Part shown: one piece after another, positions 17,317-32,065 of the stretch
Layout of the letters: each line of letters opens with the position of its first letter
How positions within the stretch are numbered: the first letter of the stretch is position 1
Source of the DNA: Blastococcus sp.
Lineage (GTDB): Bacteria; Actinomycetota; Actinomycetes; Mycobacteriales; Geodermatophilaceae
NCBI GenBank assembly: GCA_025965715.1
Contig: JAOPWJ010000195.1
Location: 1-37,962 of the forward strand
Direction: 5' to 3'
DNA length: 37,962 bases
Made by a program: the position numbers and the translations under genes
Notes under the pieces: model-generated
Seen by the model: the letters and a program-made list of their open reading frames with translations, nothing else
Databases searched by the model: none
Told to the model about the DNA's origin: nothing

Positions 17317-17327
17317 CCGTCGCGCCG

Positions 17328-17333
17328 TACTCT
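17328..17333 (+). promoter_or_regulatory. Leaderless -10 box TACTCT
   Basis: TACTCT ends 6 nt before the ATG at 17340. The GAGGG between them is too close to the ATG to act as a ribosome binding site. Confidence 0.55.
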
Positions 17334-17339
17334 GAGGGC

Positions 17340-17678
17340 ATGCCGACGACGTCGACGCACCGTTCCGTCCGGATCACCCCCGTCCTGCTGGCCGGGAGCC
17401 TTCTGCTGGCGCCGCTGACGGGATGCTCGTTCAGCTCGGAGAACGTGTCGTGTTCCGGCAGCACGTGCACGGTGACCTTGTCCGGGAACGGCGCCGAGGC
17501 GGAGATCCTCGGCACCACGCTGACCCTCGGGGGCGTCGAGAACGGCAAGGCATCCCTGAGCGTCGCCGGCGCCAGCGTCTCGTGCGGCGAGGGCGAGACC
17601 GTCACCGCCGGACCGCTCTCGCTGGAGTGCTCGAGCGTCACCGACGACTCGGTGAAGCTGAGCGCCTCGCTCAGCTGA
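17340..17678 (+). CDS. Small lipoprotein
   Basis: This 112-aa protein has a lipoprotein signal: basic start, then VLLAGSLLLAPLTGC, with the lipobox LTGC near residue 24. The mature part is Ser/Gly-rich and beta-strand-like, with four Cys (SCSGSTCTV, VSCGEG, LECSS) that could form disulfides outside the cell. I do not recognise the family. The start is set by the leaderless TACTCT box. It follows the phosphoesterase stop by 23 bp and converges with the next gene, only 17 bp away. Confidence 0.7.
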   Translation: MPTTSTHRSVRITPVLLAGSLLLAPLTGCSFSSENVSCSGSTCTVTLSGNGAEAEILGTTLTLGGVENGKASLSVAGASVSCGEGETVTAGPLSLECSSVTDDSVKLSASLS

Positions 17679-17695
17679 GCCGGCCGCCCCGCGCG

Positions 17696-18331
17696 TCACG
17701 CCGGATCGCGTACCTCCACGACCACCCGCTCCGGGTTCTGCATCGCGTAGACCCGGAACGGCGCCTCCGTCGTCGTCCCGACGAAGGCCACCGTCGTCCC
17801 CTCGTAGGTGGCGTCGAAGAGCACCTCGGTGACCTCTTCGGTACCGGCGGCGGTGATCGGCTCCCGGTTGGCGAACTCGTCCACGCCGGTGTCGAAGGGG
17901 TACCGGGCGCCGGTGATCGTCACCTGCAGGGTCGCGTCCCCGGCCACCTCCACCGGCTCGCCACGTCCCTGGGAGACCGCGACGTCGACGTAGCGCACGT
18001 CCCAGCCGGGCGTTCCCGCGCCGTCGATCTCGAGTACCACCCGGTCGAAGCCCTCGTGGTGGCCGAGCCGGACATCGGTCACGGTGACCGCGGCGTCCGT
18101 GGAGGCGTCCTGGGTGTCGGGCGAGGTGTCGGCGGGGAACGGCGCCGCCTCGGTCGCGTCGTCGCCCGACGGGGACGCCTGGGTCGAGGTTATGGCCCGA
18201 GGCGTCGTCGACGAGCCGCTCGCCGACGGGGTCCCGCCCGGGGCCGTGCCGCCACAGCCGGCGAGGACGGAGCCGGCCACGACGGCGACCAGAAACCCTC
18301 CGGGGGCGGCGGTCCGACCGCACCAGCGCAT
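17696..18331 (-). CDS. AMIN-like domain lipoprotein
   Basis: This 211-aa protein has a lipobox (SVLAGC) after a short hydrophobic signal, then a 60-residue Ser/Thr/Pro linker. The C-terminal ~130 residues resemble the AMIN-like domain of actinobacterial lipoproteins: TDVRLGHHEGFDRVVLEI, GWDVRYVDVAV, and a final FRVYAMQNPERVVVEVRDP. Such domains are thought to hold proteins at the cell envelope. The ATG at 18331 is preferred because it leads directly into the signal peptide. A short hairpin (GGCAG/CTGCC) lies immediately before the ATG and could affect initiation. It is divergent from the tRNA cluster. Confidence 0.75.
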   Translation of the reverse strand: MRWCGRTAAPGGFLVAVVAGSVLAGCGGTAPGGTPSASGSSTTPRAITSTQASPSGDDATEAAPFPADTSPDTQDASTDAAVTVTDVRLGHHEGFDRVVLEIDGAGTPGWDVRYVDVAVSQGRGEPVEVAGDATLQVTITGARYPFDTGVDEFANREPITAAGTEEVTEVLFDATYEGTTVAFVGTTTEAPFRVYAMQNPERVVVEVRDPA

Positions 18332-18383
18332 GGCAGGAGCCTGCCAGCCCGCCCCCTGCGCCCGGTGGCCCCACGCCGCCATG

Positions 18384-18389
18384 TATTCT
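18384..18389 (+). promoter_or_regulatory. Possible -10 box of the tRNA cluster
   Basis: TATTCT lies in a locally T-rich patch about 25 bp before tRNA-Glu. No clear -35 is seen. Confidence 0.35.
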
Positions 18390-18414
18390 TTCTTCCGCCC
18401 CCGGCGAACTACGA

Positions 18415-18487
18415 GCCCCCATCGTCTAGTGGTCCAGGACGCCGCCCTTTCAAGGCGGTAGCACGGGTTCGAACCCCGTTGGGGGCA
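18415..18487 (+). tRNA. tRNA-Glu (anticodon TTC)
   Basis: A 73-nt cloverleaf: acceptor GCCCCCA/TGGGGGC, anticodon loop CTTTCAA giving TTC, and T-arm ACGGG-TTCGAAC-CCCGT. The CCA end is not encoded. It is the first of three clustered tRNA genes. Confidence 0.97.
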
Positions 18488-18533
18488 CGCACGATGAGCA
18501 CGCATTTCGGCACACATGTTCAGCACGCACGAT
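18485..18533. repeat. 11-bp direct repeat between tRNA genes
   Basis: GCACGCACGAT occurs at 18485-18495, covering the 3' end of tRNA-Glu, and again at 18523-18533, just before tRNA-Asp. Confidence 0.6.
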
Positions 18534-18539
18534 CAGCTA

Positions 18540-18613
18540 GGCCCTGTAGCGCAGTTGGTTAGCGCGCCGCCCTGTCACGGCGGAGGTCGCGGGTTCGAGT
18601 CCCGTCAGGGTCG
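18540..18613 (+). tRNA. tRNA-Asp (anticodon GTC)
   Basis: A 74-nt cloverleaf: acceptor GGCCCTG/CAGGGTC with one G-T pair, anticodon loop CTGTCAC giving GTC, and T-arm GCGGG-TTCGAGT-CCCGT. The discriminator is G and CCA is not encoded. Confidence 0.97.
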
Positions 18614-18637
18614 CTCTCCGGTGCGAGCACCGGTGAG

Positions 18638-18711
18638 GGGCAGGTAGCTCAGTCGGTACGAGCGCTCGCCTGAAAAGCGAGAGGTCGGCGGTTCGACCCC
18701 GCCCCTGCCCA
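18638..18711 (+). tRNA. tRNA-Phe (anticodon GAA)
   Basis: A 74-nt cloverleaf: acceptor GGGCAGG/CCTGCCC, anticodon stem CTCGC/GCGAG around CTGAAAA giving GAA, and T-arm GGCGG-TTCGACC-CCGCC. CCA is not encoded. It closes the Glu-Asp-Phe cluster. Confidence 0.97.
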
Positions 18712-18737
18712 CCGGGAACATCTGTCGGCGCCGTACC

Positions 18738-18767
18738 GGCGGTCGGGGCGGCCGCCCCCCGACCGCC
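18738..18767. terminator. Bidirectional hairpin between tRNA-Phe and carbonic anhydrase
   Basis: GGCGGTCGGGG and CCCCGACCGCC form a perfect 11-bp stem with an 8-nt GC loop, 26 bp past tRNA-Phe and 10 bp past the carbonic anhydrase stop. It could end transcripts from both sides. There is no T-run. Confidence 0.6.
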
Positions 18768-18777
18768 GCGGACCGGC

Positions 18778-19266
18778 TCAGGACACCTCGCGCAGCCGCC
18801 CCGTGGCGACGTCGAAGACGAAGCCCCGCACGCTGCCCTTCTCGGGGATGAACGGGCTGTCCAGGATCCGCTGCACCGACGCCTTCACGTCGACGTCCAG
18901 GTTGCTGAACGCCTCGGACTGCCACGGTGGCAGCACGCCGACCTCCTGCTGGATCGTGGAGCGGAAGTCCGCGTCGGTGAAGGTGAGCATTCCGCAATCG
19001 GTGTGGTGGATCAGCACGATCTCCTTGGTGCCGAGCAGACGCTGGCTGATGGCCAGCGACCGGATCTCGTCATCGGTGACGACGCCCCCTGCGTTGCGGA
19101 TCACGTGCGCCTCCCCCTCGTTCAGGCCGAGGACGCGGTAGACGTCGATACGGGCGTCCATGCACGCGAGGACGGCGACGTGCTTGGCCGGCGGCAGCGG
19201 AAGGGGGCCAGTGAAACCCTCGGCGTAGCGCTCGTTGTTGGCGATGAGTTCGTCGGTCACGGACAT
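18778..19266 (-). CDS. Beta-class carbonic anhydrase
   Basis: This 162-aa enzyme interconverts CO2 and bicarbonate in the cytosol. The zinc ligands are C35 (CMDARID, with D37 and R39 forming the Asp-Arg pair), H88 and C91 (HHTDCGM). Its short length matches the compact beta-class enzymes of actinobacteria. GAGGAG lies 5-6 nt before the ATG. It is transcribed alone and converges with the tRNA cluster across a strong hairpin. A pseudogene remnant lies just upstream on the same strand. Confidence 0.92.
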   Translation of the reverse strand: MSVTDELIANNERYAEGFTGPLPLPPAKHVAVLACMDARIDVYRVLGLNEGEAHVIRNAGGVVTDDEIRSLAISQRLLGTKEIVLIHHTDCGMLTFTDADFRSTIQQEVGVLPPWQSEAFSNLDVDVKASVQRILDSPFIPEKGSVRGFVFDVATGRLREVS

Positions 19267-19294
19267 CGGGTCTCCTCGTGCTGTGCGGGTGGGG

Positions 19295-19493
19295 TCAGGC
19301 GGACGTGCTCTGCTGGCGGCAGCTGAAGTGGGCGCGGCCGGTGTCGCCCGTCCAGTCGGCGAACGACTCGCCGGTCAGCTCCTCGAGCAGCTCGATGTCC
19401 GACAGCAGCCGGTCCAGGGGCGCGCAGCGCGGTGGTGCTCGCCTTGGGTGCGCCGGCGATCACGAACGGGGGCCGGCGGTGCAGGTCGGACAT
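19295..19493 (-). pseudogene. Sulfotransferase relic with internal deletion and frameshift
   Basis: The minus strand opens with MSDLHRRPPFVIAGAPKAST, the typical start of a PAPS-dependent sulfotransferase (P-loop-like GxPKxGTT, with Ser for Gly). About 25 codons in, around 19418, coding jumps frame. The next frame reads LDRLLSDIELLEELTGESF and then DWTGDTG to a TGA at 19295-19297. That looks like the C-terminal helix of the same family. The ~250 residues normally between are absent. I therefore read it as N- and C-termini joined by a large out-of-frame deletion. It lies upstream of the carbonic anhydrase and next to sugar-related genes. The family is inferred from motifs only. Confidence 0.6.
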
Positions 19494-19579
19494 CAGCGGG
19501 TCGTCCCGGATCGCGGCGCGGACATGGCGGCGGTGTACACACAGGGACGCCGTCGTCCTCCCGAACCCGGAGCTGCCCT

Positions 19580-20503
19580 GTGTCCTCCCCTGCCCGCCCG
19601 TCGGTCGCCCCTCGGCCCCCGGAGGCCGACCGGTTCTGGGCCGACGCCGAGGTCGTCCTCGAGCCCGAGGACCCGCGGCCGGGCTCCTGGGCGGGAGGGC
19701 CGTCGGCCCAGCTGGTGGACGGCACGTGGTGGCTGGCCTACCGGCTGCGGCGGCCGGTCGGCGAGGGCCGCGGGATCGCCAACGTCGTGGCCCGCTCCGA
19801 CGACGGCGTCCGGTTCACCCCGGTGGCCGGGATCAGCAAGGACGGTTTCGGCGCCGAGTCGCTGGAGCGCCCGGCACTCGTGCACACCCCCGAGGGGCGC
19901 TGGCGGCTCTACGTCAGCTGCGCCACCCCGGGCACCAAGCACTGGCGGGTGGATCTGCTGGAGGCCGACACCGTCGAGGAACTGGCCACGGCCGTGCCCC
20001 GCACCGTCCTGCCCGGCGACGAGCGGCACGCGGTCAAGGACCCGGTGATCCGTCACGACGGAGCGACGTGGCACCTGTGGGCCTCGGTCCACCCGCTCGA
20101 CGATCCGCAGGCCACCGACCGGATGACCACCGAGCACGCGACCAGCCCGGACGGCGTGGACTGGACCTGGCGCGGCACCGCCCTGGCCGGTACGCCCGGC
20201 AGCTGGGACGCCCGAGGTGTCCGCTTCGCCACCGTGGTCCTGGACGGAGCACGCAGCTGGGCCCTGTACGACGGCCGGGCCACGGCGGCGGAGAACTGGG
20301 AGGAGCGCACCGGGCTGGCGGTGCAGACGAGCGGCGGCCGATTCCTCGCTGTGGGCGACGCGCCGTTGCTGCAGAGCCCTCATCCACCGTTCGGCCTGCG
20401 CTACGCCGACGTGGTGGCGGTGCCGGGTGGGGGTGCGCGATGGTTCTACGAGGCGACGCGGCCCGACGGTGGGCACGACCTGCGCACGGTGCTGCTGCAC
20501 TGA
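19580..20503 (+). CDS. Beta-propeller glycosidase-like protein (GH43/GH32-type)
   Basis: This 307-aa soluble protein looks like a five-bladed beta-propeller of the GH43/GH32 group. Repeated strands each carry Asp and aromatic pairs: GTWWLAYRL, RSDDGVRFTPV, EGRWRLYVSCA, VKDPVIRHDGATWHLWASV, SPDGVDWTWRG, ARSWALYDG and ARWFYEATR. The DPV near residue 154 sits where the family has its catalytic-site Asp. No signal peptide is present. GGAG lies 7 nt before the GTG at 19580; longer in-frame starts cross the sulfotransferase relic and are unlikely. It converges with a glycosyltransferase, so it may act on an intracellular glycan (inference). Enzymatic activity is unproven. Confidence 0.6.
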   Translation: MSSPARPSVAPRPPEADRFWADAEVVLEPEDPRPGSWAGGPSAQLVDGTWWLAYRLRRPVGEGRGIANVVARSDDGVRFTPVAGISKDGFGAESLERPALVHTPEGRWRLYVSCATPGTKHWRVDLLEADTVEELATAVPRTVLPGDERHAVKDPVIRHDGATWHLWASVHPLDDPQATDRMTTEHATSPDGVDWTWRGTALAGTPGSWDARGVRFATVVLDGARSWALYDGRATAAENWEERTGLAVQTSGGRFLAVGDAPLLQSPHPPFGLRYADVVAVPGGGARWFYEATRPDGGHDLRTVLLH

Positions 20504-20633
20504 CCTGCACTCCCCGGCCATAGGGCGCGCTCCTCGGATCCCGTCTCCCACGACCAAGTCGATCGTTTTGATAGAGATTACATCGCCGGTCAACCGCCCC
20601 CCGCCAGTGCGCGCCATCCGGAGGGGCGTCGCG

Positions 20634-21671
20634 TCAGACCCAGCTCCGGTCGGCGGCGACCTGCGCGTAGACCTCCTCGTGCACCCGGACGACGGCGGTC
20701 CGCTGCTCCGCGCGCCACGCACGGTCGGCCGGCCGCGGCATGGGGCGGGTCAGGGCCACGGCGACCGCGCCGGTCAGCGACACGACGTCGAGCCCGTACT
20801 CCTCGTCATTGCCGTAGGACACCACCTCCGACCACTGGTCGGCGAACCAGCCGCAGCTCGGCGCCACCACCCGGGTGCCGACGTCGCGGCAGATCTCCAG
20901 GTCGCGGGAGTGGGTGCCGCACCGCTCGGGCAGGACGGCGACGTGCAGCTGCTGCAGCTGTGCCGGCCACTCGGCGCGCGGGTGGACGACGAGCTCGATG
21001 GCGCCGCGCCCGGCCAGCTGCCAGATGTCCGGGTGGAGGCCCGACTGGTTGTCCGAGGCGACCAGCACGCGCAGCCGGCCGCCACCGGAGACCGCACCCG
21101 ACAGCGCGGCCCGCACGAGGGCGGCCGGGTCGGGGACGGCCGACGAGGACGGACCCACCCGCATGCCGACCAGCCCGCGCTCCGCCCCGAGTTCCGGATT
21201 CGGCACGGCGAGGGACGGGTGCGCGACGACGATCGCCGTCCGGCCGAACCGTTCGGCGATCTCGTCGGCGGCCCCGGGGGTCAGGGTGAGCACCACCTCG
21301 GCGGTGGACAGCAGCGCGGCGAGGTGCGCGTCGTGCCGGGCGCGGGCGTCCTGATCCGGATCGCGCAGCTGGTGCACGGTGACCACCAGGGGGATGCCCA
21401 GTCGGCGCACGGTCTCGGTCCAGCACTCCACCGCGACCTCGGCCAGGTGGCCGTATCCGGTGTGCACGTGCAGCACGTCGATGTCCCGGTAGTGCCCGAT
21501 CAGGTACGCCCGGTCCAGCCAGGGGCTCGGCGCCGTCTCCGGCCCCACCCGGACGACGTCCCGCGGAAGGACGGCGTCGACGTAGGGGTCACTGTGCGGA
21601 ATGGTTGCCACCCGGAGTCGGCTGCCCTCGCGAACGGGCAGCCGGGGTACCGGGGGGTCGATGGAAGTCAC
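20634..21671 (-). CDS. Glycosyltransferase-like protein (GT-B fold)
   Basis: This 345-aa protein resembles GT4-type glycosyltransferases. The N-terminal half has DIDVLHVHTGYGHLAEVAVE and PLVVTVHQLRDPD, followed by the TAEVVLTLTPGAADEIAERF segment typical of the first Rossmann domain. The second half contains LRVLVASDNQSG, HVAVLPERCGTHSRDLEICRD and VVAPSCGWFADQ, where donor-nucleotide contacts normally lie. The usual EX7E Glu pair is not obvious, so the donor and activity are uncertain. The start is GTG 21671; GAGGAG lies about 15 nt upstream, rather far. It converges with the beta-propeller gene. Confidence 0.7.
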   Translation of the reverse strand: MTSIDPPVPRLPVREGSRLRVATIPHSDPYVDAVLPRDVVRVGPETAPSPWLDRAYLIGHYRDIDVLHVHTGYGHLAEVAVECWTETVRRLGIPLVVTVHQLRDPDQDARARHDAHLAALLSTAEVVLTLTPGAADEIAERFGRTAIVVAHPSLAVPNPELGAERGLVGMRVGPSSSAVPDPAALVRAALSGAVSGGGRLRVLVASDNQSGLHPDIWQLAGRGAIELVVHPRAEWPAQLQQLHVAVLPERCGTHSRDLEICRDVGTRVVAPSCGWFADQWSEVVSYGNDEEYGLDVVSLTGAVAVALTRPMPRPADRAWRAEQRTAVVRVHEEVYAQVAADRSWV

Positions 21672-21839
21672 GCGGGGGAAGGACTCCTCGTGCGATCGAG
21701 CACTGGGTCAGCACGGGAGTGCTGCTCGCCTGGGTCAGCGCCCGGCCACGCTTTTCGAGCCGGTCAGGTGTCTGCCTACCCCACGTCACAGGCAGTCAAC
21801 CCGTGACAACTCCATCAGGTGACTCGCAGTGTCCCCTCA

Positions 21840-22559
21840 TCACGGAGGGCTCAGGCCCGCCGGGCCTTTCCGGGCCGCCCGGGCGGTCGCGTAGGCCGGC
21901 GCCCGGAAGCGCGCCATAGGCCCGTCGGGCACCAGCCCGGGCGGCGGGTTGAGAACGGCGTCGAAGCGGACGTCGGCGTCGAGCGGCTGCTCGGGCTCGG
22001 TCAGGGACAACCGTCCGAACGGCTGCCACGGTCGCGTTCCGCACGCCGCCACGAGCGTGAACCGGAGGGTCCGCCGCGCCACGTCGCGGGCGAGCGACTC
22101 CGGGTCCGACGGCACGCCGGACGCCTCCGGAAAGGCGGCGATGCGCAGGCTTCCGGCGTCCGACCGGTAGGCCATGATCGAGGAGTAGACGCAGCCGCTG
22201 TCACGCCGGGGCACTGGCAGCAGCCGGCTCAGCCGCCCCCTGCCGCTGCTGCTCAGGAGCAAGTGGACCGACCCGGACCGACCGGGGACGCAGACGGCCA
22301 GGCCCAGCAGGTCCGGCAGTGCAGCCGGCAGCCCGGCTCCCCGGGACAGCCGGGCGGTGGCGGGCTCGACGGCGCTCTCGTCCAGCCACGGCACGCCCCA
22401 GGGCGACGGGCTCCCGTGCCGCTCCAGCACCGCTTCGAACAGCGCTCCCCGGGGATGCATCGGCTTGCCGCGGCGCCACCGCGCGAGCGCGCCCAATGGC
22501 ACAGCCGCCAGCCGGCCGGCCAGCCGCGCCGGATCCAGCACGCCGCTCACGCCCCCCAT
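21840..22559 (-). CDS. Conserved hypothetical protein (actinobacterial, HPRG motif)
   Basis: This 239-aa soluble protein has WRRGKPMHPRGALFEAVLER near its N-terminus and LSRGAGLPAALPDLLGLAV near residue 75. It ends in a basic Ala-rich tail. Related actinobacterial proteins are sometimes labelled phosphodiesterase, but I see no metal site that supports it. Three in-frame ATGs compete (22598, 22580, 22559). GGAG is 5 nt before 22559, so I chose that one. The family's function is unknown to me. Confidence 0.6.
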   Translation of the reverse strand: MGGVSGVLDPARLAGRLAAVPLGALARWRRGKPMHPRGALFEAVLERHGSPSPWGVPWLDESAVEPATARLSRGAGLPAALPDLLGLAVCVPGRSGSVHLLLSSSGRGRLSRLLPVPRRDSGCVYSSIMAYRSDAGSLRIAAFPEASGVPSDPESLARDVARRTLRFTLVAACGTRPWQPFGRLSLTEPEQPLDADVRFDAVLNPPPGLVPDGPMARFRAPAYATARAARKGPAGLSPP

Positions 22560-22797
22560 GACGGCTCCGCTTCCTCCCATCGCCACCGGCCAGTACATGC
22601 TCCCCCGGAAGCGGGGCTCGCGCCGGGCAGCCGGAATCGGCGCACGACCGGCGCCAGTCCCGCGCCCCGCCTACCGGCCGGCCGCACGCGTGGGCACCGC
22701 GGGTCTCCTCGACCGGAATGTGCTGGTGAATCGGTCGACCGGCGAAGTATGGGCAACCAGGCGCCGATCTTCGGCGAGATCTGCCCAGCCGTACCCG

Positions 22798-22827
22798 GTG
22801 ACACGGACCGGTTCGCCCGATTACGTT
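22798..22827 (+). promoter_or_regulatory. Leaderless sigma-70-type promoter
   Basis: GTGACA (22798-22803) and TACGTT (22822-22827) are separated by 18 bp. The -10 ends 6 nt before the ATG at 22834, so the mRNA should start at or near the A of the start codon. It is the best-formed promoter in the window. Confidence 0.7.
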
Positions 22828-22833
22828 CTGTAC

Positions 22834-23049
22834 ATGCTCTCGACGCTTCTGGTCATCGGTGGTGTGCTCGTGGGGCTGCTCGTGCTGCTCGCGGTGATCG
22901 TGAGCCTCAGCGCCCGGCCGGCGCCAGCCCCGGCGGGCCGCTCCGCCGTGCGCACCCCCTCGTGGGTGGCCGACGCCGGCCGCCCGCACCCCGACGCCTG
23001 GTCGCCCCTCTCGACCGGCAACACCAGCGAGATGCCCGCCATCCGCTGA
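22834..23049 (+). CDS. Small single-pass membrane protein
   Basis: This 71-aa protein has one transmembrane helix at its N-terminus (LLVIGGVLVGLLVLLAVIVS), then a Pro/Arg/Ser-rich cytosolic or external tail with RTPSWVAD and DAWSPLSTGNTSEMPA. The start is fixed by the leaderless promoter. No family is recognised. It lies alone, convergent with the GMC gene. Confidence 0.65.
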   Translation: MLSTLLVIGGVLVGLLVLLAVIVSLSARPAPAPAGRSAVRTPSWVADAGRPHPDAWSPLSTGNTSEMPAIR

Positions 23050-23205
23050 TCTCCCGAACTCCGGCGTCCCGGCTGCGGGCCCGCCGCCGGGGCAGCGGAC
23101 CTGCGGCAAGGCTCCGTCCTCGGGAGCTGCGGCGCCGGCGCGAGGTGTGCTCCCCCGGCCCCCGGCCCCCGGTCACGCCTCGCCGGTCGGGCCACTCCCG
23201 TGCGG

Positions 23206-24720
23206 TCAGGCCGTCATGAGCTCGGCGGCACGTTCCCCCAGCATCACCGCCGTCGCCGCGGGGCCCCGCGAGGGCGCCCGGGGCAGCACCGAGGTGTCGG
23301 CGACCCGGAGCCCGCTCACCCCCCGCACTCGCAGGTTCTGGTCGACGACTGCGCCCGGGTCGGCAGCCGGCCCCATGCGGGCGGTGCCGCAGAGGTGGAT
23401 CGCGGTGGTGAGGCGCTGCCGGACCCAGGCATCCAGCGCGGCGTCGTCGGCCAGGACGTCGTCGGGCAGGCCGGTGCGCCCGGCGACCAGCGGGCGGAGC
23501 GCCCTCGTCCGCAGCAGCTCTGCGGCCAGGCGCACCCCCTCCCGGAGGCGCCGCCGGTCGGATTCCGCCGTCAGGTAGCGGTAGTCCAGCCGCGGCTGCC
23601 GCAGGGGATCGGCGCCCGCCAGGCTCAGCCGGCCCCGACTGTCCTCCCGCTGGAGGCCGACGCCCAGGACCAGTTCGTCCGCAGAGGGTCCGGCGGGCCC
23701 GCCGGTGATCCGACTGAAAGGCGTCAGCCAGGGCAGGACCTCGAGGTCGCCGGACCTCCGCCCGCCACCGGAGTCGGCGTGCAGCACCCCGTGCAGGGGC
23801 AGCCGGCCGGGCGGCAGCGGGCGGGCGGGCCGGTAGCCGACGTAGACGTTCGGGTGGTCGGTGAAGTCCGCGCCCACGCCGGACACGTCCGCGACCACGT
23901 CCACCCCCGCCGTGCGGAGCTGGTCGGCCGGGCCGATGCCCGAGAGCAGCAACAGATGCGCCGATCCCACCGCGCCGGCGCTGAGCACCACCTCGGCGGC
24001 CCGGATCACGCCGTCGGAGGTCTCCACCCCGGTCGTCCTGGTGTGCGAGATCAGCACCCGCCGCACGTGCGCGCCGCCGCGCACGGTCAGCCCGGGGCGC
24101 CCGCGGCGGGGCGACAGGTAGGCCATGGCGGTGTTGACCCGCATTCCGCCGGCCGTGGTCAGCGGCACCGGGCCGTATCCCGGGCCGGCACCGGCGTTCT
24201 TGTCCGGCTCCTCCGGAAAGCCGAGCTCCGCGGCCGCGCCCGCGAACGCCTCCGCCAGGGGCCCGGGATCCGCCGTTCGGGCGACCGGCACCGGCCCGTC
24301 GGAGCCGTGCTCCGGCCGATCCCCGTAGTCCGCGTCCGCCTCGAGACGGCGGAACGACGGAAGCACCCGCTCGTAGGACCACAGGTCGTTGCCTGCCGCC
24401 GCCCAACCGTCGAAGTCCGCGGGCGTGCCGCGGATGAAGTAGCCGGCGTTGAGCGCACTGGAACCGCCGACCACCCGCCCGCGCGGCACGCCGACGGTTC
24501 GCCCGGGCGTGAGCGTGCCGGTCAGGTTCCAGTTCGCCGGGGAACCGGGCACCGCGGCGGCCATGCGGGCAGGATCGCGGAGCTCCGGGGGGAAGTCCGC
24601 CGGCAGGGCGTGGTCGGCGCCCGCCTCGAGCAGCAGCACGCGGCGCCCCGCGTCGGCCAGCCGGGCGGCCAGCGGGCAGCCCGACGTCCCGGCGCCGACG
24701 ACTACGACGTCCCACTCCAT
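23206..24720 (-). CDS. GMC-family FAD oxidoreductase, mycofactocin-type
   Basis: This 504-aa flavoenzyme oxidises an alcohol. The FAD-binding GAGTSG is at 9-14, followed by LLLEAGAD. GRVVGGSSALNAGYFIRG and SAGAVGSAHLLLLSGIG are the two GMC signatures. The catalytic His is H442 in IHLCGTARMG. The second catalytic residue, usually in an NTNAP stretch, is replaced by SRGPAAT at 484-490. I associate that pattern with the mycofactocin-linked Rv0697/MftG group, where a redox cofactor rather than O2 is the acceptor. No mft genes lie in the window. ATG at 24720 overlaps the ligase stop by one base (TGATG), so it is the third gene of a coupled operon. Its substrate is unknown. Confidence 0.8.
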   Translation of the reverse strand: MEWDVVVVGAGTSGCPLAARLADAGRRVLLLEAGADHALPADFPPELRDPARMAAAVPGSPANWNLTGTLTPGRTVGVPRGRVVGGSSALNAGYFIRGTPADFDGWAAAGNDLWSYERVLPSFRRLEADADYGDRPEHGSDGPVPVARTADPGPLAEAFAGAAAELGFPEEPDKNAGAGPGYGPVPLTTAGGMRVNTAMAYLSPRRGRPGLTVRGGAHVRRVLISHTRTTGVETSDGVIRAAEVVLSAGAVGSAHLLLLSGIGPADQLRTAGVDVVADVSGVGADFTDHPNVYVGYRPARPLPPGRLPLHGVLHADSGGGRRSGDLEVLPWLTPFSRITGGPAGPSADELVLGVGLQREDSRGRLSLAGADPLRQPRLDYRYLTAESDRRRLREGVRLAAELLRTRALRPLVAGRTGLPDDVLADDAALDAWVRQRLTTAIHLCGTARMGPAADPGAVVDQNLRVRGVSGLRVADTSVLPRAPSRGPAATAVMLGERAAELMTA

Positions 24721-26087
24721 CACGTGGTCGGCTCCCCTGCAGGGTCCCGCCGCGAGCCCGCGAGCGGTGGGGGGAAGCGGGCGCCCTTCTGCAGCACCTC
24801 CGGCAGATCCAGCCGCCGGACCTTCCCCGTCGACGTCCGCGGCAGCTCGCCGAGCCGGTGCAGCGCCTTCGGCCGCTTGGCCGCACCCAGCCGATCCCGC
24901 GCCCAGCTCGCGAGCTCGGCCGGGTCGGCCGACCCGACGTAGGCGGCCACCACGCGCTGGCCCCACTCGTCGTCCGGAACGCCGAACACCGCGCTCTCCA
25001 CGACCTCGGGATGGGCGTCGAGGACCGCCTCCACCTCGGCCGGGTAGACGTTGACGCCGCCGGAGATGACCAGGTCCTCCCGTCGGCCGTCCAGCCATAC
25101 GACGCCGTCGTCGTCCACCCGGCCGAGGTCGCCCACGGTGACCAGGTCGCCCCGCCAGGCTGCCGCCGTCTTGTCCGGAGCCCGCCAGTACTCGAAGCGC
25201 GCCCACGGCGGAACGGCGCACCACAGCTGGCCGCGGTCATCGGTCTGCAGCCGGCGTCCCGGACGAGCGCGGCCGACGCTGCCGGGGTGGGCCAACCAGT
25301 CCGCGGTCGAGCAGACGGTGAACTGCGCCTCGGTCGACCCGTAGAACTCCCAGACGCTGTCCGCCGGCAGCGCCTCGATCACGGCCCGCTTCAGCGGCGC
25401 GGGGCACGGGGCGCCGGCGTGCGCGAGCATGCGGAACGAGGACCAGTCGACGCCCCCGTGCCCGAGCAGCCGCTGCAGGTGGGTCGGCACGCAGAAGGTG
25501 GTGGTCGGTCGCAGCTCGGTGATCGCCGCCGCCGCCTGGGCGGCGCCGAAGGCACCCGGCAGCAGCACCGAACCACCGGCCAGCAGGGTGTGCACGGCGA
25601 AGCGCAGGGGGGCGCTGTGGTGCAGCGGGGACAGGACGAGGTGCCGGTCCCCCTCCTGGAAGCCCCACAGCTCGATCTCCTCGGCGGCGAGGGCTCGGGC
25701 GTCGTCCTCAAGGAGGACGCCGGACCAGACGCCCTTGCGGCGACCGGTCGTCCCTGACGTGTAGTGCATGGGGCGCGCGAGCGGCACGTCGGCGAGGTCG
25801 GCCTGCTCCTCACCCAGCAGCCCCGCCGGGTCATCGGCGACGTCGAGGGCAGCGTCGGCGTCCTCGGCGAGGGTGGCGCGCTCGGCCGCGGGCAGGCCCG
25901 GGTCGAGCACCACGGGCACGATTCCGGTGCGCAGCGCCCCCAGGACGACGGCCAGCAGCGCCGGCGAGGCCGCGGCCGACACCAGCAGCCGGTCACCCGC
26001 GCGCAGACCCTCCGCGGCCAGCGCCGCCGCGGCCCGCCGCTGGTCGCGTTCGCTGTCCACGCTCGTCACCACCGGGACGCCGGTCAC
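24720..26087 (-). CDS. AMP-forming acyl-CoA ligase (ANL family), short form
   Basis: This 455-aa enzyme activates an acid with ATP and then forms a CoA thioester. It has YTSGTTGRRKG at 109-119, YGSTE at 249-253, GDLGRV at 319-324, and the C-terminal catalytic lysine K422 (TSTGKVRR). The usual ligase is 500-550 aa; here about 60-80 residues are missing from the N-terminal subdomain. The acid substrate cannot be read off. The GTG at 26087 overlaps the MBL stop (GTGA) and its own stop overlaps the GMC start. It thus sits in the middle of a fully coupled operon, which suggests it acts on a product of the GMC enzyme or supplies the MBL enzyme. Confidence 0.82.
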   Translation of the reverse strand: MTGVPVVTSVDSERDQRRAAAALAAEGLRAGDRLLVSAAASPALLAVVLGALRTGIVPVVLDPGLPAAERATLAEDADAALDVADDPAGLLGEEQADLADVPLARPMHYTSGTTGRRKGVWSGVLLEDDARALAAEEIELWGFQEGDRHLVLSPLHHSAPLRFAVHTLLAGGSVLLPGAFGAAQAAAAITELRPTTTFCVPTHLQRLLGHGGVDWSSFRMLAHAGAPCPAPLKRAVIEALPADSVWEFYGSTEAQFTVCSTADWLAHPGSVGRARPGRRLQTDDRGQLWCAVPPWARFEYWRAPDKTAAAWRGDLVTVGDLGRVDDDGVVWLDGRREDLVISGGVNVYPAEVEAVLDAHPEVVESAVFGVPDDEWGQRVVAAYVGSADPAELASWARDRLGAAKRPKALHRLGELPRTSTGKVRRLDLPEVLQKGARFPPPLAGSRRDPAGEPTT

Positions 26088-26953
26088 GCCAGGCGCACCC
26101 GATCGCCGGCATCCGGGACGACGCGGCCCTCCGTGCGCAGCTTGACGAGCGTGGCCCGGGTCGACTGCGCGGCGGCGGGCCACACCTCCCGCGGAACCTC
26201 GGCATAGACGACCGTGACCAGCTCGTCGACCGATCTCGGGCCACCGGCGAGCGCAGCCAGCAGCTGGCTCTCCCGGTAGGCCCGGTGGGCCAGGTAGAAC
26301 GCCAGCACGGCGCCGGGGTCCTCGGTCAGCTCGGGTCCGTGGCCGCAGTAGAGCGCGCTCGGCCCGAGGTCCTGGACGCGGCGCAGCGACTCCAGATACG
26401 CCACCACGTCCCCCTCGGGATGGGTCACCACCGACGTGCCTCGGCCGAGCACGTGGTCGCCGACCAGCACCGCGCCGGACTCCAGCCGGAAGGCGAGGTG
26501 GTCCGCGGTGTGACCGGGCGTCGCCACCACGTCGACGGTCGTGCCCGCGAGGCGCAGCCGCTCGCCCGGTTCCAGCACCCGTCCGCCCGGCCCGGCGACG
26601 GAAGCCCCGGCGGCCGCGACCTGCGCGCCGAACCGGGCGCCCCAGGGCAGTGCGGCCTCCGCGTGGTCGCCGTGGTGGTGGGTGACCAGGACGGCGACAC
26701 AACGGGCATCGCGGGCCGCCAGCGCCGCCTCCACCGCCGCGAGGTGCGCCGCGTCGTCCGGTCCCGGGTCGACGAGCACCGCCTGACCGCTCCCTGGAGC
26801 GCCCACCAGGTAGGTGTTGGTGCCGTCCAGGGTCATCGGGGAGGGATTGGGCGCCAGCACCCGGGTGACCAGCGGCTCCAGGTCCGCCGTCCGGGGCAGC
26901 GCGCCCGGCGCGGGTTGGCCCCACGCGGTACGGGGATCGGCCGGGGCATCCAC
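26084..26953 (-). CDS. MBL-fold hydrolase (LACTB2-like)
   Basis: This 289-aa metallo-beta-lactamase-fold enzyme has the dimetal motif H92-x-H94-x-D96-H97 in THHHGDH. VDPGPD (61-66), the VVATPGHTADH segment and VLVGDHVLG supply the remaining ligands. The last ~70 residues (SQLLAALAGGPRSVDELV and beyond) look like the winged-helix tail of LACTB2-type proteins. Such enzymes hydrolyse thioesters, glutathione-like thiol esters or RNA. GTG 26953 is chosen because TAGCGT ends 7 nt upstream (leaderless); an in-frame TTG at 26983 lies before that box. It is first in the MBL-ligase-GMC operon. A thioesterase role beside an acyl-CoA ligase is plausible but inferred. Confidence 0.8.
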   Translation of the reverse strand: MDAPADPRTAWGQPAPGALPRTADLEPLVTRVLAPNPSPMTLDGTNTYLVGAPGSGQAVLVDPGPDDAAHLAAVEAALAARDARCVAVLVTHHHGDHAEAALPWGARFGAQVAAAGASVAGPGGRVLEPGERLRLAGTTVDVVATPGHTADHLAFRLESGAVLVGDHVLGRGTSVVTHPEGDVVAYLESLRRVQDLGPSALYCGHGPELTEDPGAVLAFYLAHRAYRESQLLAALAGGPRSVDELVTVVYAEVPREVWPAAAQSTRATLVKLRTEGRVVPDAGDRVRLA

Positions 26954-26960
26954 GTCGCGC

Positions 26961-26966
26961 ACGCTA
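26961..26966 (-). promoter_or_regulatory. Leaderless -10 box TAGCGT of the MBL operon
   Basis: On the minus strand TAGCGT ends 7 nt before GTG 26953. It lies back to back with the lipoprotein promoter at 27000-27005, and the two presumably share their -35 space. Confidence 0.55.
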
Positions 26967-26999
26967 GCCGCGCGGCTGCCCAATCGCGCAGGGGGCGGC

Positions 27000-27005
27000 T
27001 AGCCT
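27000..27005 (+). promoter_or_regulatory. Leaderless -10 box TAGCCT
   Basis: TAGCCT ends 7 nt before the ATG at 27013. The sequence is identical to the box before the small HTH gene (5574-5579). Confidence 0.6.
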
Positions 27006-27012
27006 GCGGTTC

Positions 27013-27525
27013 ATGCGTCCAACCCTGCCCGCGTGCCGCACCGGACTGTCCGCGGCCGCCGCATTCGTGCTCCTGACCGCGTGCAGCGGTGGCGACGACA
27101 CCGACTCCTCGGCCTCCGCCGAGTCCACGACCCCCTCCAGCGCATCCGAGACGACCGCCGCCGCCAGCTCGGAGTTCTGCGGCCAGGCCGCCGCTGTCCA
27201 GGAGCGGGTGGGCGCCACCTTCTCCGGCAGTTCCGACCCCACGACCCTGCCCGCGGTCCTGCAGGAAGCCGCCACCGAGATCCGCGCGATCCAACCGCCC
27301 GAGGAGATCGCCTCGGACTGGACCTCGTTCGCCGACGGCATCGAGCAGATCGCCGCGGCCGCGCAGATCGATTTCACCGACCAGGCCGCCGTGGCCACGT
27401 TCCAGCAGCAGGCCGGCGCGCTGCAGCAGCAGTACGGAACGGCGTTCACCAACGTGGAGACCTACCTGAGCGACGAGTGCGGGTTCACCGACACTCCGAC
27501 GGAGACATCCGCGCCCACCAGTTGA
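27013..27525 (+). CDS. Lipoprotein, helical
   Basis: This 170-aa protein has a lipoprotein signal (LSAAAAFVLLTAC, lipobox LTAC) and then a 35-residue Ser/Thr linker. A helical domain follows (FCGQAAAVQERVGATF, AVLQEAATEIRAIQPPEEI, WTSFADGIEQIAAAAQIDF, FQQQAGALQQQYGTAF) and a final Cys in SDECGF. The two Cys could pair. Such helical lipoproteins are common in actinobacteria and have no known role that I can assign. The start is set by the TAGCCT box. It is divergent from the MBL operon across only 59 bp. Confidence 0.7.
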   Translation: MRPTLPACRTGLSAAAAFVLLTACSGGDDTDSSASAESTTPSSASETTAAASSEFCGQAAAVQERVGATFSGSSDPTTLPAVLQEAATEIRAIQPPEEIASDWTSFADGIEQIAAAAQIDFTDQAAVATFQQQAGALQQQYGTAFTNVETYLSDECGFTDTPTETSAPTS

Positions 27526-27551
27526 TCCGAGCTGATCCCAGCCGGTCGTAC

Positions 27552-27594
27552 AGCTGCGGCCCGTCACCCATCCCCGAGGTGACGGACCGCAGCT
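27552..27594. terminator. Strong bidirectional terminator hairpin
   Basis: The arms 27552-27568 and 27578-27594 pair over 16 of 17 positions around a 9-nt loop. They lie 26 bp past the lipoprotein stop and 33 bp past the M23 stop, between convergent genes. No T-run is present, as is common in high-GC actinobacteria. Confidence 0.75.
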
Positions 27595-27627
27595 CGATCG
27601 AGGGCCGGCCGAGCCGGCCGGCGAGGG

Positions 27628-28995
27628 TCAGCAGCCGCTGACGTCGATGCCCCGGGCACGCAGCCACGGCATGGGGTTGACCGAACCGCTGTACATGCGG
27701 CCGCTCGGGTGCACCTCGAAGTGCAGGTGCGGCCCGGTCGAGTGGCCCCGGTTGCCGACCTCGGCGATCAATTGGCCGGTGACCACGTGCTGGCCGGTGC
27801 GCACGAAGTCCTGGTTGACGTGGCCGTAGACGGTGACCGCACCGTCGTAGCCACGGATGTACACGGCCTGACCGAAGCCGGTCGCCGGGCCGGTGCGGGC
27901 CACGACCCCCGAGCCGGCGGCGTAGATGGCCGTCCCGATGGGGGCGCCGACGTCCACGCCGGCGTGCAGCCGGCCCCAGCGGTACCCGTAGCAGCTGCTG
28001 ATGTGGCCCGACGTCGGGAAGACGTAGTTGCCACCACCACCGCCGGACACCGAGCCGTTGTCACCCGCCGACCCCGCGAGGCTGGCGGCCACCGCACGGG
28101 CCGCGGCGGCCGCGGCTGCCGCGGCCCGGGCTGCCTTCTCGGCCGCCTTCCTCGCGGCCGCCTCCTCGGCGGCCTTCTGCCTCACCCACTGCTGGTAGGC
28201 GTTGCGGGCGCCCTGGAGCTCGAGCAGACGGATCTGGGCCGCCTGCAGCTGCTGGTCGTAGGTCGCCTTCTGCGCGGCCACCTTCTCGTACTCGCTCTGC
28301 TCGACGGCGAGCCGGCTGTCGGCCGTCGCCTTGGCGGCCGCCGCCACCTCCTGGGCGTCCGCCATCTGGTCGCGGGCGGCGCGGGCGGCCGAGTCGGCGT
28401 TCGCCTGCTTCACCCGGGCCACCTCGAGCTGCCCCAGCACGTCGACCTGGTTGTCGGCGACGTAGTCCAGGAGCGCCGCGCGCTGGATGAGCTCGCCCGG
28501 GCCCTCGGCGCTGAGCAGGGCGGCCGAGGTGCTCAGCGAGGTGCCGTTCATGTAGCTGTCGTGCGAGAACGCGGCGATCCGCGACCGCGCGGCCGTGACG
28601 CCGGCGGCGGCCCTCTCCAGCTCGGCCGCGGTCGCGTCGGCCGCCGCCTGCGCCTCCTCGAGGGCCTCCTCCGCCTCGAGGTAGGCGGCTCCTGCCGCCT
28701 CCGCCTCGACACTGACCCGCTCCAGCGCGGCCTCGGCCCCGGCGACCAGCCCGGCGATGCGTCCGACCTCGGCCGCGGCGGCCTCGCGCTCGCTCTGGGC
28801 CGCGCCGATCTCGGCGTCACTGGGGTTGGGCGGCGGGGCGGGGGCGGCGAAGGCGGTCGTCATGCTCCCGACCAGTGCCGCCCCGGCGGCCACGCCGACC
28901 AGGGCCGTACGCAGCGTGTGGGACCCGCGTCCCGTCGACGCGCGGCGGCAGCCGGGTCGCGAGGACGCCGGTCCGGAGGGACGGCGCTGGAACAT
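27628..28995 (-). CDS. Secreted M23 peptidase with long coiled coil
   Basis: This 455-aa protein has a long signal peptide (basic start, then LRTALVGVAAGAALVG, cleavage near TAFA-AP). An Ala/Glu-rich coiled coil runs about 60-320, and an M23 peptidase domain covers about 330-450. The zinc ligands are H344 and D348 (HAGVD) and H425 (HLHFE). The general-base His is H392 (YGHVN) or H423. It should cleave peptidoglycan cross-bridges outside the cell, as in the NlpD/EnvC-like group, where the coiled coil controls the peptidase. All catalytic residues are present. GGAG lies 6 nt before the ATG at 28995. The 140-bp upstream region carries an inverted repeat. Confidence 0.88.
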   Translation of the reverse strand: MFQRRPSGPASSRPGCRRASTGRGSHTLRTALVGVAAGAALVGSMTTAFAAPAPPPNPSDAEIGAAQSEREAAAAEVGRIAGLVAGAEAALERVSVEAEAAGAAYLEAEEALEEAQAAADATAAELERAAAGVTAARSRIAAFSHDSYMNGTSLSTSAALLSAEGPGELIQRAALLDYVADNQVDVLGQLEVARVKQANADSAARAARDQMADAQEVAAAAKATADSRLAVEQSEYEKVAAQKATYDQQLQAAQIRLLELQGARNAYQQWVRQKAAEEAAARKAAEKAARAAAAAAAAARAVAASLAGSAGDNGSVSGGGGGNYVFPTSGHISSCYGYRWGRLHAGVDVGAPIGTAIYAAGSGVVARTGPATGFGQAVYIRGYDGAVTVYGHVNQDFVRTGQHVVTGQLIAEVGNRGHSTGPHLHFEVHPSGRMYSGSVNPMPWLRARGIDVSGC

Positions 28996-29020
28996 GAGTG
29001 CTCCGAGGGGAAGAGGGTGC

Positions 29021-29089
29021 GGCGGGGTGTGCCTCAGAAGAGTCGCAGGATCACCCTGAGTCACACGCGCAACACGCGGCACACCCGCC
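29021..29089. repeat. Long inverted repeat upstream of the M23 gene
   Basis: GGCGGGGTGTGCC (29021-29033) and GGCACACCCGCC (29078-29089) pair over 12 bp with one bulged base, spaced 44 nt apart. It lies in the leader or promoter region of the minus-strand peptidase gene and may be an operator or an mRNA structure. Confidence 0.5.
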
Positions 29090-29133
29090 ACGCTCGTTAC
29101 CGAGTCGTGTCCTCCCCCGTCGGCACTGCCCCG

Positions 29134-29961
29134 CTAGCCCGGCTCGGGCCGCTCCAGCTCGTGCGCCAGCTGGTCCAGCTCCGCGCCGCCGGCCATCAGA
29201 CGGGTCAGCCCCTCGCGGGTCACGTCGTCCTTGGCGTAGTGCCCGAGGCTGCGGCCCCGGTTGAGCAGCAGGAAACGGTCGCCCACGGGATGGGCGTGGT
29301 GCGGGTTGTGGGTGATGAAGACGACGCCCAGTCCCCGGTCGCGCGCACGGGCGATGTACCGCAGCACCACGCCGGCCTGCCGCACACCCAAGGCCGACGT
29401 CGGCTCGTCGAGGATGAGGACGCGAGCACCCAGGTGCACCGCGCGGGCGATCGCGACCGACTGCCGCTCGCCGCCCGACAGCGTGCCGACGGGCTGGTCG
29501 GGGTCGCGGATGTCGATGCCCATCGCGGCGAGCTCGCGCCGGGTGGTCTCCTTGGCCGCGGCCCGGTCGAACCGGCGGAACGGGCCCCAGCCCGTGGTGG
29601 GCTCCGAGCCCAGGAAGAAGTTCCGCCAGATCGCCATCAGCGGGATCATCGCGAGGTCCTGGTAGACCGTGGCGATGCCCGCGTCGAGGGCGTCCCGGGG
29701 CGCGCCGAAGGTCACCGGCTGCCCGTCGAGGAGGAGCTCGCCGCGGTCCGGCCGGTGCACCCCGGACAAGACCTTGATCAGGGTCGACTTGCCCGCACCG
29801 TTGTCGCCCAGCACGCAGGTGACCTCGCCGGCGCGCACCGACGTGCTGATGTCGTCGAGCGCGATCACCGGCCCGAAGCTCTTGCCGACGCCGCGCAGCT
29901 CGAGGAGCGGAACGGCTCCTCCGCCCCTCGTGACTGCGCCCCTCATGCCTGGGTCGGTCAT
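29134..29961 (-). CDS. Sugar ABC transporter ATP-binding protein
   Basis: This 275-aa ATPase powers sugar import. Walker A is GDNGAGKST near residue 53, the signature is TLSGGERQS, Walker B is [12 protein letters not shown], and the H-loop follows in [10 protein letters not shown]. It has a single ATPase domain, as in FrcA-type importers, whereas RbsA/AraG types carry two. ATG at 29961 overlaps the permease stop (ATGA). It is last in the binding protein-permease-ATPase operon. The substrate is probably a monosaccharide such as fructose, ribose or xylose; it cannot be fixed from sequence. Confidence 0.9.
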
Positions 29962-31013
29962 CGCCTGGCCGCCTCGGCGTAGCGCCGGACGAGCCGGTTG
30001 GCCAGCACCGCGAGCAGCAGCATGGCTCCCAGGAAGAAGTAGAACCAGTCGGCGTTCCAGTTCAGGTACACGATGCCGAGCTGCGTCATGCCGAAGATCA
30101 GCGCACCGAGCGAGGCGCCCACCGCGGAGCCGAAGCCCCCGGTGAGCAGGCATCCGCCGATCACAGCCGCCACGATGTAGATCAGCTCCTGGCCGATCCC
30201 GGTGTTGGCCTGCACATTGGTCAGCCGGACGGCCAGGGTCGTGCCGACGAACCAGGCGGCGGTGGCCGTGGTCAGGAACAGCACGATGGTGGTCCGCTGC
30301 GCCGGGACGCCGACGTTGCGGGCCGCGACGTCGTCCCCACCGGTGGCGAAGATCCAGTTGCCGAACCGCGTGCGCAGGAGCACGTAGGAGGCCAGGACCG
30401 TGGCCAGCACCCACCACAGGACGGCGATGCGGATCTGGGCCGCGCCGAGGGTGATCCGGGAGGCGAAGACCGCCTCCGCGAGGTCGTAACCGGGCGCGCG
30501 GGCGATCCCGCCGGCGGTGACCGTCCCGGTGAAGAACTTGGTCAGCCCGAGGTTGATGCCCTGCAGCATCAGGAACGTGCCCAGCGTGATGATGAAGCTC
30601 GGCAGGCCGGTGCGGGTGACCAGCCAGCCGTTGAGGAATCCGACGGCCAGCGCGACGGCCAGCGCGATCGCGATGCCCAGCCAGATGGACTGCTCGAACT
30701 CGCCGGCCACGATGCCGACAGTCAGCGCCGTCGTCCCGGTCATCACTCCGGCGGACAGGTCGAAGTGACCGCCGATCATGAGCAGCGCGACGGCCACGGC
30801 CATGATCCCGAGCGTCGAGGCGGGGTCCAGCCAGTTGGCGATGCCGCGCGGGGAGCGGAACACCCCCGACTGGGCCGCGAAGAACGCGAAGATGACGACC
30901 GCGCCGACCAGCGCGCCGAGCTCCGGCTTGACCAGCAGCCGCCGGAGCGGGCCGACGGCGGAGATCCGCTCGTCCGCGCCCGTTCCGGCGGTGGCGACCT
31001 CCCGGGTGCTCAG
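29958..31013 (-). CDS. Sugar ABC transporter permease
   Basis: This 351-aa membrane protein has ~9-10 helices of the RbsC/FrcC family, with [16 protein letters not shown] and [20 protein letters not shown] as signature loops. ATG or GTG codons are absent from the plausible N-terminal region in this frame. CTG at 31013 overlaps the binding-protein TGA as CTGA, parallel to the ATGA and GTGA overlaps elsewhere, so I propose a CTG start. The resulting N-terminus matches the expected length before the first helix ([16 protein letters not shown]). Confidence 0.85.
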
Positions 31014-31978
31014 CGGGTGCCGGCCGAGGCCAGGTCGGCGATCTCGTCGACGTTGTCGGCGTCGACGATGCCGGGGCCGGTGAGCACCGGCTGCCCACCG
31101 CCGACGGTGTTGAGGTTCTCGGCGTACAGCTCGAGCATCACGATGGGCAGATAGCCCTGCTCGTACTGCTGCTGGTCGACGGCGAAGGTGATCGTGCCGT
31201 CCTGGATGCCGGTGATGACCGCCTCGTTGAGGTCGAAGGTGGCGATCTGGGCCTGGGACCCTGCGTCCTCGGCGGCGGCCACGGCAACGGCCGCGACCGC
31301 GGAGTTCAGCGTGAGGACGGCGTCGATGCCCGGGTCGCTCTGCAGCTGCGAGGTGATCGTCGACTGGGCGGCCTGCAGGTCGTTGACGTCCACCTGCAGG
31401 GTGTTCACCTCGCTGCCGAGGCCCTTCGAGGCCCCGGAGCAGCGCTGTTCCAGCCCGATGTTGCCCGCCTCGTGGACCACGCACAGGACGTTCTCCGCGC
31501 CGGCCCGGGCCAGCTGTCGGCCCGCGCCCTGCCCCGCGATGGTCTCGTCCTGCCCGACATGGCCGATGGCGCCGAACTCCGCGGACCGCTCGCCTCCGGA
31601 GTTGATCGTGACGACCGGGATGCCCGCCGCGACCGCCGCCTCGACGGAGTCCTGGAGGGCGTCGGGGTTGGCCATCGACACGACGATGCCGTCGACCTCC
31701 TGATTGACCGCCGCGTCGATCAGCTGGGCCTGGCGCTGCGGGTCACCGTCGCTCTGGTAGTCCACCGTGATGCCGAGATCCTTCCCGGCGGCCTTGGCGC
31801 CGTTCTGCACGACGTCCCAGAACGCGTCACCGGCGGAGCCGTGGGTCACGACCGCGACATGCAGGTCGCCGCCGCTCCCGCCACCGGTCCCGCCGGTACC
31901 CCCGTCGTCGGCCGAGCAGGCCGCGAGGAGCAGGGGTGCGGCCACCGCGAGGGCCAGCAGTCGCTTCGGTCGGGGCAT
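31010..31978 (-). CDS. Sugar ABC transporter substrate-binding lipoprotein
   Basis: This 322-aa periplasmic-binding-type lipoprotein has a lipobox LLAAC, then a Gly/Ser linker ([13 protein letters not shown]). The mature part is a type I binding fold: [52 protein letters not shown] and [11 protein letters not shown]. It resembles RbsB/FrcB proteins and should deliver a sugar to the permease. AGGAGG lies 5 nt before the ATG at 31978. It is first in the operon and its TGA overlaps the permease start. The divergent neighbour is a Leu/Val dehydrogenase, 87 bp away. Confidence 0.9.
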
Positions 31979-32053
31979 GGAGTCCTCCTGTGATCGCGGA
32001 GGCCGCACCGCCTCCGCTGGGTGTCCACCCAAGGATGATGCCTGGCGCGGTCC

Positions 32054-32059
32054 TAGGCT
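32054..32059 (+). promoter_or_regulatory. Leaderless -10 box TAGGCT
   Basis: TAGGCT ends 6 nt before the GTG at 32066; no ribosome binding site is present. Confidence 0.6.
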
Positions 32060-32065
32060 CCCCCC

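Follow-up and report, generated by a model that had tools for sequence, protein, structure and literature searches.

A predicted MftG encoded away from the mycofactocin cluster and overlapping a LACTB2-like hydrolase and compact ligase unit in Geodermatophilaceae

The mycofactocin dehydrogenase MftG of Mycolicibacterium smegmatis, a member of the GMC superfamily, is reported to oxidise mycofactocinols and to feed the respiratory chain (PMC11778925); the same paper describes mftG as frequently lying within 5 kb of the mft genes, a linkage that is a hallmark of the gene and not a requirement. Here we describe a stretch of 37,962 nucleotides from Blastococcus sp. (Geodermatophilaceae; the window), which constitutes one contig (C263) of a 3.55-Mb genome in 263 contigs, 80% complete, and which encodes a metallo-beta-lactamase (MBL)-fold hydrolase, a compact acyl-CoA ligase and a GMC oxidoreductase in overlapping order. 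An earlier note, made from the letters alone, had proposed that the GMC enzyme is of the MftG type and that the three enzymes together could oxidise an alcohol, activate the acid and cleave a thioester. In our analysis the former proposal is supported and the latter is not: the GMC protein probably represents a relocated, family-wide MftG that is expressed together with a resident, LACTB2-like hydrolase and a ligase independent of mycofactocin, and that passes electrons from mycofactocinol to respiration. Geodermatophilus obscurus appears in a table of mycofactocin-linked oxidoreductases in PMC3023750. In the literature searched, which excludes preprints and most subscription journals so that absence is not proven, we found neither a paper joining mycofactocin with Geodermatophilaceae or Blastococcus nor a description of the three-gene arrangement.

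Identification of the GMC gene as the organism's MftG is supported by model score, phylogeny, an active-site motif and co-occurrence with mftC. The protein scores 468 bits against TIGR03970 (cut-off 387), and lies below the cut-offs of TIGR04542 (GMC_mycofac_2; 197 bits, cut-off 400), NF038210 (101 bits, cut-off 300) and two choline dehydrogenase models (367 bits with a cut-off of 605, and, for BetA, TIGR01810, 313 bits with a cut-off of 732). The TIGR04542 subtype, which had also been considered, is rejected on its score, and an ordinary choline dehydrogenase on score, tree and motif together. Both the FAD GxGxxG motif (GAGTSG) and the active-site histidine (His442) align, and the previously noticed replacement of the second catalytic Asn motif is borne out by comparison: SRGPAAT fills the site where 21 of the 22 GMC rows not belonging to the MftG clade hold an Asn-containing motif, and in the 53-row alignment RG(P/T) occupies this site in 31/31 MftG-clade rows and 0/22 others.

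The tree built from these 53 rows (15 of 38 GMC rows from the family, 10 of 32 from f8, a family of the same order taken to be Mycobacteriaceae, and 28 others; L003, which repeats the gene of L002, and L208, whose genome is already represented by L131, were excluded) places the GMC proteins of the trio, the f8 MftGs, and proteins of families f4, f10 and some of f15 in a single 31-row clade. Within it the trio proteins group with mft-linked MftGs, and their sister rows come from mftC-bearing f15 genomes; in two f8 genomes (G430 and G172) MftG adjoins mftF, mftE and mftC. The search for mftC covered 19 of the 31 clade rows, the remaining twelve being five from the family and seven from f8, and found it for 18, the exception being a genome that is 57% complete (G268). 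Of the 22 rows outside the clade, 12 belong to genomes in which no mftC exceeds the cut-off and 10 to mftC-bearing genomes; three genomes of the latter group (G066, G072, G338) showed no MftG-clade protein. In one genome without mftC (G164, locus L176), two divergently oriented GMC genes both fall outside the clade. TIGR03970 scores in f8 are mostly 572–746, with four at 435–496, and because the window protein scores below most of these it is, judged by sequence, a divergent member of the MftG group. Like M. smegmatis MftG, it exceeds the TIGR03970 equivalog cut-off, belongs to the GMC family, carries the FAD motif and active-site histidine and co-occurs with mftC; in contrast, its gene is unlinked to the mft cluster and lies in a predicted operon with the MBL and compact ligase genes. 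One detail of the initial reading is reversed, namely that the enzyme gives electrons to mycofactocin: PMC11778925 reports MftG taking electrons from mycofactocinol.

Where, then, are the mft genes? They lie elsewhere in the genome. Contig C137 carries mftR (227 bits, cut-off 225), mftB (110, cut-off 33), mftC (649, cut-off 265), mftE (334, cut-off 172) and mftF (382, cut-off 280; truncated where the contig ends), together with a 40-amino-acid open reading frame that is a probable mftA by its ending, IDGMCGVY, which we took, unscored, as a sign of that gene. A gene for an NDMA-dependent alcohol dehydrogenase (TIGR03989, 580 bits, cut-off 440) lies near this cluster, about 3.5 kb away. The window's MftG gene is on a separate contig, and since in the 42 of 94 family genomes that hold both mftC and MftG on one contig the nearest copies are 151–398 kb apart, mftG is relocated away from the mft cluster wherever the family could be checked. 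In part of the family mftD, too, is separated from mftC, either by a long distance or by lying on a different contig. Between mftC and mftF, the C137 locus itself (L130, positions 16000–32879) has genes for a GGDEF-EAL cyclic di-GMP protein, for an NCS1-type permease whose 72 bits are under cut-off, and for a protein weakly matching nicotinamidase (29 bits), with no mftD there; three other genomes (G024, G086, G105) hold two or three mftC copies each.

Across the 112 family genomes, MftG (called at 400 bits or more; next best match 290) was found in 96, mftC in 102 (101 over cut-off), the ligase in 73 and the MBL gene in 109, mostly at 72–88% identity, with five at about 46–50%. Both mftC and MftG occur in 94 genomes, mftC only in 8, MftG only in 2 and neither in 8. 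In the high-quality subset of 96 genomes, MftG is present in 86 of 91 with mftC and in none of the five without it (G032, G090, G093, G099, G111; Fisher p 4e-6, not corrected for kinship).

Several observations weigh against this assignment and the role we attach to it. Eight genomes have mftC without MftG, namely G029, G070, G072, G073 and G074, which are high-quality, and G066, G071 and G095; two, both incomplete assemblies, have MftG without detected mftC (G036, G097). Kinship-corrected pairs, taken from an MBL tree of 41 genomes, point in the right direction but are too few, with 3 supported, 2 agreeing and 0 opposing the mftC/MftG association (median p 0.5). The stem of the MftG clade is supported at only 90/89, and G338, from outside the family, has mftC and yet its best GMC match falls outside that clade. 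The window protein's score below most f8 MftGs could reflect a shifted substrate or acceptor. No mftD over cut-off was found in the window's 80%-complete genome; it was over cut-off in 11 of the 14 genomes searched, the others being G032 and G093, which also have no mftC. Lastly, in the high-quality set MftG is present in 66 of 67 ligase genomes versus 20 of 29 ligase-less ones (p 6e-5, uncorrected), an association within the family that could mean a functional link between the two.

The three genes and their junctions are given in Table 1. Both stop-start overlaps described earlier are borne out, and they are kept across family loci: in a survey of the window together with 33 named-record family loci (34 in all; nearest-start script), the 4-nucleotide overlap between MBL and ligase genes recurs in 29 of the 33 loci holding both, and the ligase–GMC junction overlaps in 31 of 34, the remaining three being separated by 17 nucleotides. 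The MBL start was set by alignment, the gene caller having chosen 26962. Searching for a TANNNT hexamer 5–9 nucleotides before the aligned MBL start codon, we found one at 6–8 nucleotides in 32/32 family upstream regions, against 0.2/32 in mononucleotide shuffles; these regions come from related loci and are not 32 independent events, and one start call (L084) is one base off. The hexamer fits a predicted leaderless promoter ahead of the MBL gene, agreeing with the single promoter proposed before, and the three genes are likely carried on one transcript. About 60 bases away lies the beginning of a divergent open reading frame whose start is lipoprotein-like.

Table 1. Genes, junctions and predicted promoter element of the three-gene locus in the window (gene coordinates include stop codons)
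Feature	Position	Strand	Basis
MBL-fold hydrolase, LACTB2-like, BLACT winged-helix tail; first gene	26084..26953	-	PF00753 + PF17778; 4ad9 113 bits; GTG start at 26953 by alignment
Compact acyl-CoA ligase (ANL superfamily), 455 amino acids	24720..26087	-	PF00501 + PF13193; motifs; model
MftG, predicted mycofactocin dehydrogenase (GMC superfamily), 504 amino acids	23206..24720	-	TIGR03970 468 bits; clade; motif
Predicted -10 element TAGCGT, 7 nt 5' of GTG start, leaderless-type	26961..26966	-	Family upstream regions
GTGA stop-start overlap, MBL/ligase, 4 nt	26084..26087	-	Sequence
TGATG stop-start overlap, ligase/MftG, 1 nt	24718..24722	-	Sequence

The arrangement is no peculiarity of this strain, a possibility that we reject because the trio is found across family genomes. 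For these tables of order and presence we used 104 of the 109 MBL rows, leaving out the five of about 46–50% identity and representing each split gene by its best piece, and called neighbours tight at 100 nucleotides or less by alignment. On this measure ligase and MftG are tight in 65 of the 73 ligase genomes, as are MBL and ligase, and all three genes in 60 of 73, so that the order is conserved in the Geodermatophilaceae. The exceptions include contig ends, partial matches and G032, which has no MftG; elsewhere a 3.6-kb stretch, apparently an insertion, separates ligase and MftG (G012; L170, 8402–11973; 59% G+C against 75–76% in the flanks), a 454-amino-acid gene, amidohydrolase-like by eye, stands between MBL and ligase (G065), or the MBL gene is 38 kb away (G079). 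The closest ligases are carried by loci in named records of Blastococcus, Geodermatophilus and Klenkia, and MftG follows the ligase in all 33 named-record family loci, which were found through the ligase; family MftGs are 58–81% and ligases 78–90% identical to those of the window. Because the MBL gene lies directly upstream of MftG in 24/24 MftG genomes without the ligase (gaps of 14–133 nucleotides), the basic unit thus appears to be the MBL–MftG pair, with the ligase as an added or lost module; on the 41-genome MBL tree the ligase changes seven times, mftC four times and MftG four times. Outside the family, no MBL gene was seen in nine loci around MftG relatives, one of which (L178) has a 557-amino-acid ligase homologue (32% identity) beside MftG, and L175 has one (30%) two genes away. 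An unverified record titled Bacillus sp. AZ43 (L051) holds the Geodermatophilaceae trio at 72–86% identity, and its organism is probably mislabelled.

The ligase shows YTSGTTGRRKG, YGSTE, VGDLG, GRREDLVISGG and TGKVRR, and so carries the P-loop, YGxTE, GD and catalytic Lys motifs of the ANL superfamily. It had been described as missing some 60–80 N-terminal residues; the protein is indeed shorter than its full-size homologues, and the shortfall is not N-terminal alone, amounting to about 17–28 residues at the N terminus plus 28–41 between there and the P-loop. We rejected a truncated or broken enzyme, since the compact length is common to the family and to relatives outside it and the motifs are present. 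Among solved structures its predicted fold (pLDDT 88.9) comes closest to MenE (5x8g), to McbA, an amide-bond synthetase, and to chimeras of malonyl-CoA synthetase, with 27–29% identity, matches that do not name its substrate. The model resembles MenE o-succinylbenzoate-CoA ligase with a TM score of 0.82 (by query length) at 27% identity, whereas the sequence, at 190 bits, is under the menE cut-off of 330. The enzyme would on this model activate a carboxylic acid, presumably to an acyl-CoA, with amide-bond synthetases among the fold matches.

Does this ligase depend on mycofactocin? Outside the family but within the class, compact ligases at 45–62% identity over most of their length were considered in the 34 best-scoring (at least 371 bits) of 57 matched genomes, the other 23 scoring at most 320 bits; mftC is absent from 28 of these 34 genomes, all high-quality. 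Near the ligase at 22 outside loci, coaE lies in 16, rpsA in 15, both in 13 and neither in 4, and tblastn found no MBL gene and no MftG at these 22 loci (the gene caller had missed the ligase itself in five: L263, L270, L275, L277, L278). The window ligase thus resembles in sequence the coaE/rpsA-linked compact ligases of Aeromicrobium (a record of 439 amino acids) and other actinobacteria, and differs in having MftG and MBL neighbours and an mftC-bearing genome. We therefore find a mycofactocin-dependent ligase unsupported by these outside genomes and loci; as far as gene distribution indicates, the ligase does not need mycofactocin. The compact ligase recurs as a stand-alone neighbour of coaE, rpsA or both in actinobacteria (18 of 22 loci; L259–L276, L081, L082).

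The first gene of the trio encodes an MBL-fold protein (PF00753, 57 bits) with a BLACT_WH tail (PF17778, 47 bits), and its best solved relative by sequence is beta-lactamase-like protein 2, LACTB2 (4ad9), with which it shares the fold and the winged-helix tail. The window protein is bacterial and its likeness is one of sequence, whereas the human protein is reported as a mitochondrial endoribonuclease (PMC4770246). Glyoxalase II was rejected (TIGR03413, 79 bits, cut-off 201). All five high-quality mftC-less genomes carry the MBL gene, and in G029, G090, G093, G099 and G111, all without MftG and ligase, it stays behind an M23 gene; kept where both are gone, it is by this distribution independent of them.

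We propose that an alcohol is oxidised, probably by the NDMA-type alcohol dehydrogenase encoded near the mft cluster, to yield mycofactocinol, from which MftG would, by analogy with M. smegmatis, carry electrons to the respiratory chain. The mftG gene would have come to lie directly behind the resident LACTB2-like gene and would probably be driven from the leaderless promoter of the latter, with the compact ligase as third overlapping gene between the two in most lineages. The operon would then serve co-expression and coupled translation, while the ligase would activate a carboxylic acid without need for mycofactocin and the hydrolase would act on a substrate of its own.

A rival scheme instead unites the enzymes in one mycofactocin-linked pathway, from alcohol to acid with electrons leaving via mycofactocin and MftG, then to acyl-CoA by the ligase, with the MBL protein as thioesterase or lactonase. 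The conserved overlapping order, the complete ligase motifs and the association of ligase with MftG in the family speak for it, as does the co-localisation of mycofactocin-dependent dehydrogenases with acyl carrier protein- or CoA-modifying enzymes described in PMC8728441. We nevertheless regard it as unlikely: the ligase is missing from 24 of the 96 MftG genomes, the single-contig genome G032 has adjacent ligase and MBL genes but no mftC, no MftG and no mftD over cut-off, the outside ligases mostly occur in mftC-less genomes near coaE or rpsA, and the MBL gene outlasts both partners. These last traits, the MBL gene persisting alone and the ligase without MftG, would suit a gene order that is a neutral by-product of kinship, in which genes without related roles merely inherit their adjacency; conservation is seen in one family only, and the additional gene in G065, the added stretch in G012 and the distant MBL gene in G079 are tolerated. 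Such neutrality is a possibility that we hold in reserve and do not favour, since the overlaps and the start-proximal hexamer are kept despite the divergence of MftG and ligase, and MftG lies behind the MBL gene in every ligase-less MftG genome, a pattern that suggests selection for at least co-expression.

That the GMC protein is an MftG relative acting on another substrate, as an ordinary alcohol or choline-type dehydrogenase, would accord with its TIGR03970 score under most f8 MftGs and its matches to choline dehydrogenase models, but appears highly improbable for a protein that exceeds the equivalog cut-off, groups within the MftG clade, shares the RG(P/T) specific to it, and is absent from all five high-quality mftC-less genomes. 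A regulatory link is conceivable as well. Long-chain acyl-CoAs are reported to release MftR in M. smegmatis (PMC8728441), and by analogy the ligase product might relieve MftR repression of the distant mft cluster, an MBL thioesterase remove that product and MftG drain the electrons, so that the operon would tie the recycling of mycofactocin to the supply of acyl-CoA. We think this quite improbable; if true, the relocation of mftG would have split an inducer–cofactor feedback circuit over two loci.

Relocated co-expression of MftG, the reading we prefer, extends an enzyme studied in mycobacteria to a family in which its gene lies outside the mft cluster yet is absent from every high-quality mftC-less genome, and the co-occurrence of mftC and MftG offers comparative support from another family for the role of MftG. 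A search limited to the surroundings of mft genes would miss the Geodermatophilaceae MftG, and the case cautions against taking every tidy operon for a pathway. What the compact ligase does could be tested on a defined set of family genomes that differ in whether they hold the ligase and in whether they have mycofactocin. Elsewhere in the window, on the minus strand at 37040–37962, a gene encoding the C-terminal portion of an S-(hydroxymethyl)mycothiol dehydrogenase (184 bits against the last 100 positions of TIGR03451, below the whole-protein cut-off because the window end cuts the gene) overlaps a second MBL gene, possibly encoding a formylmycothiol hydrolase.

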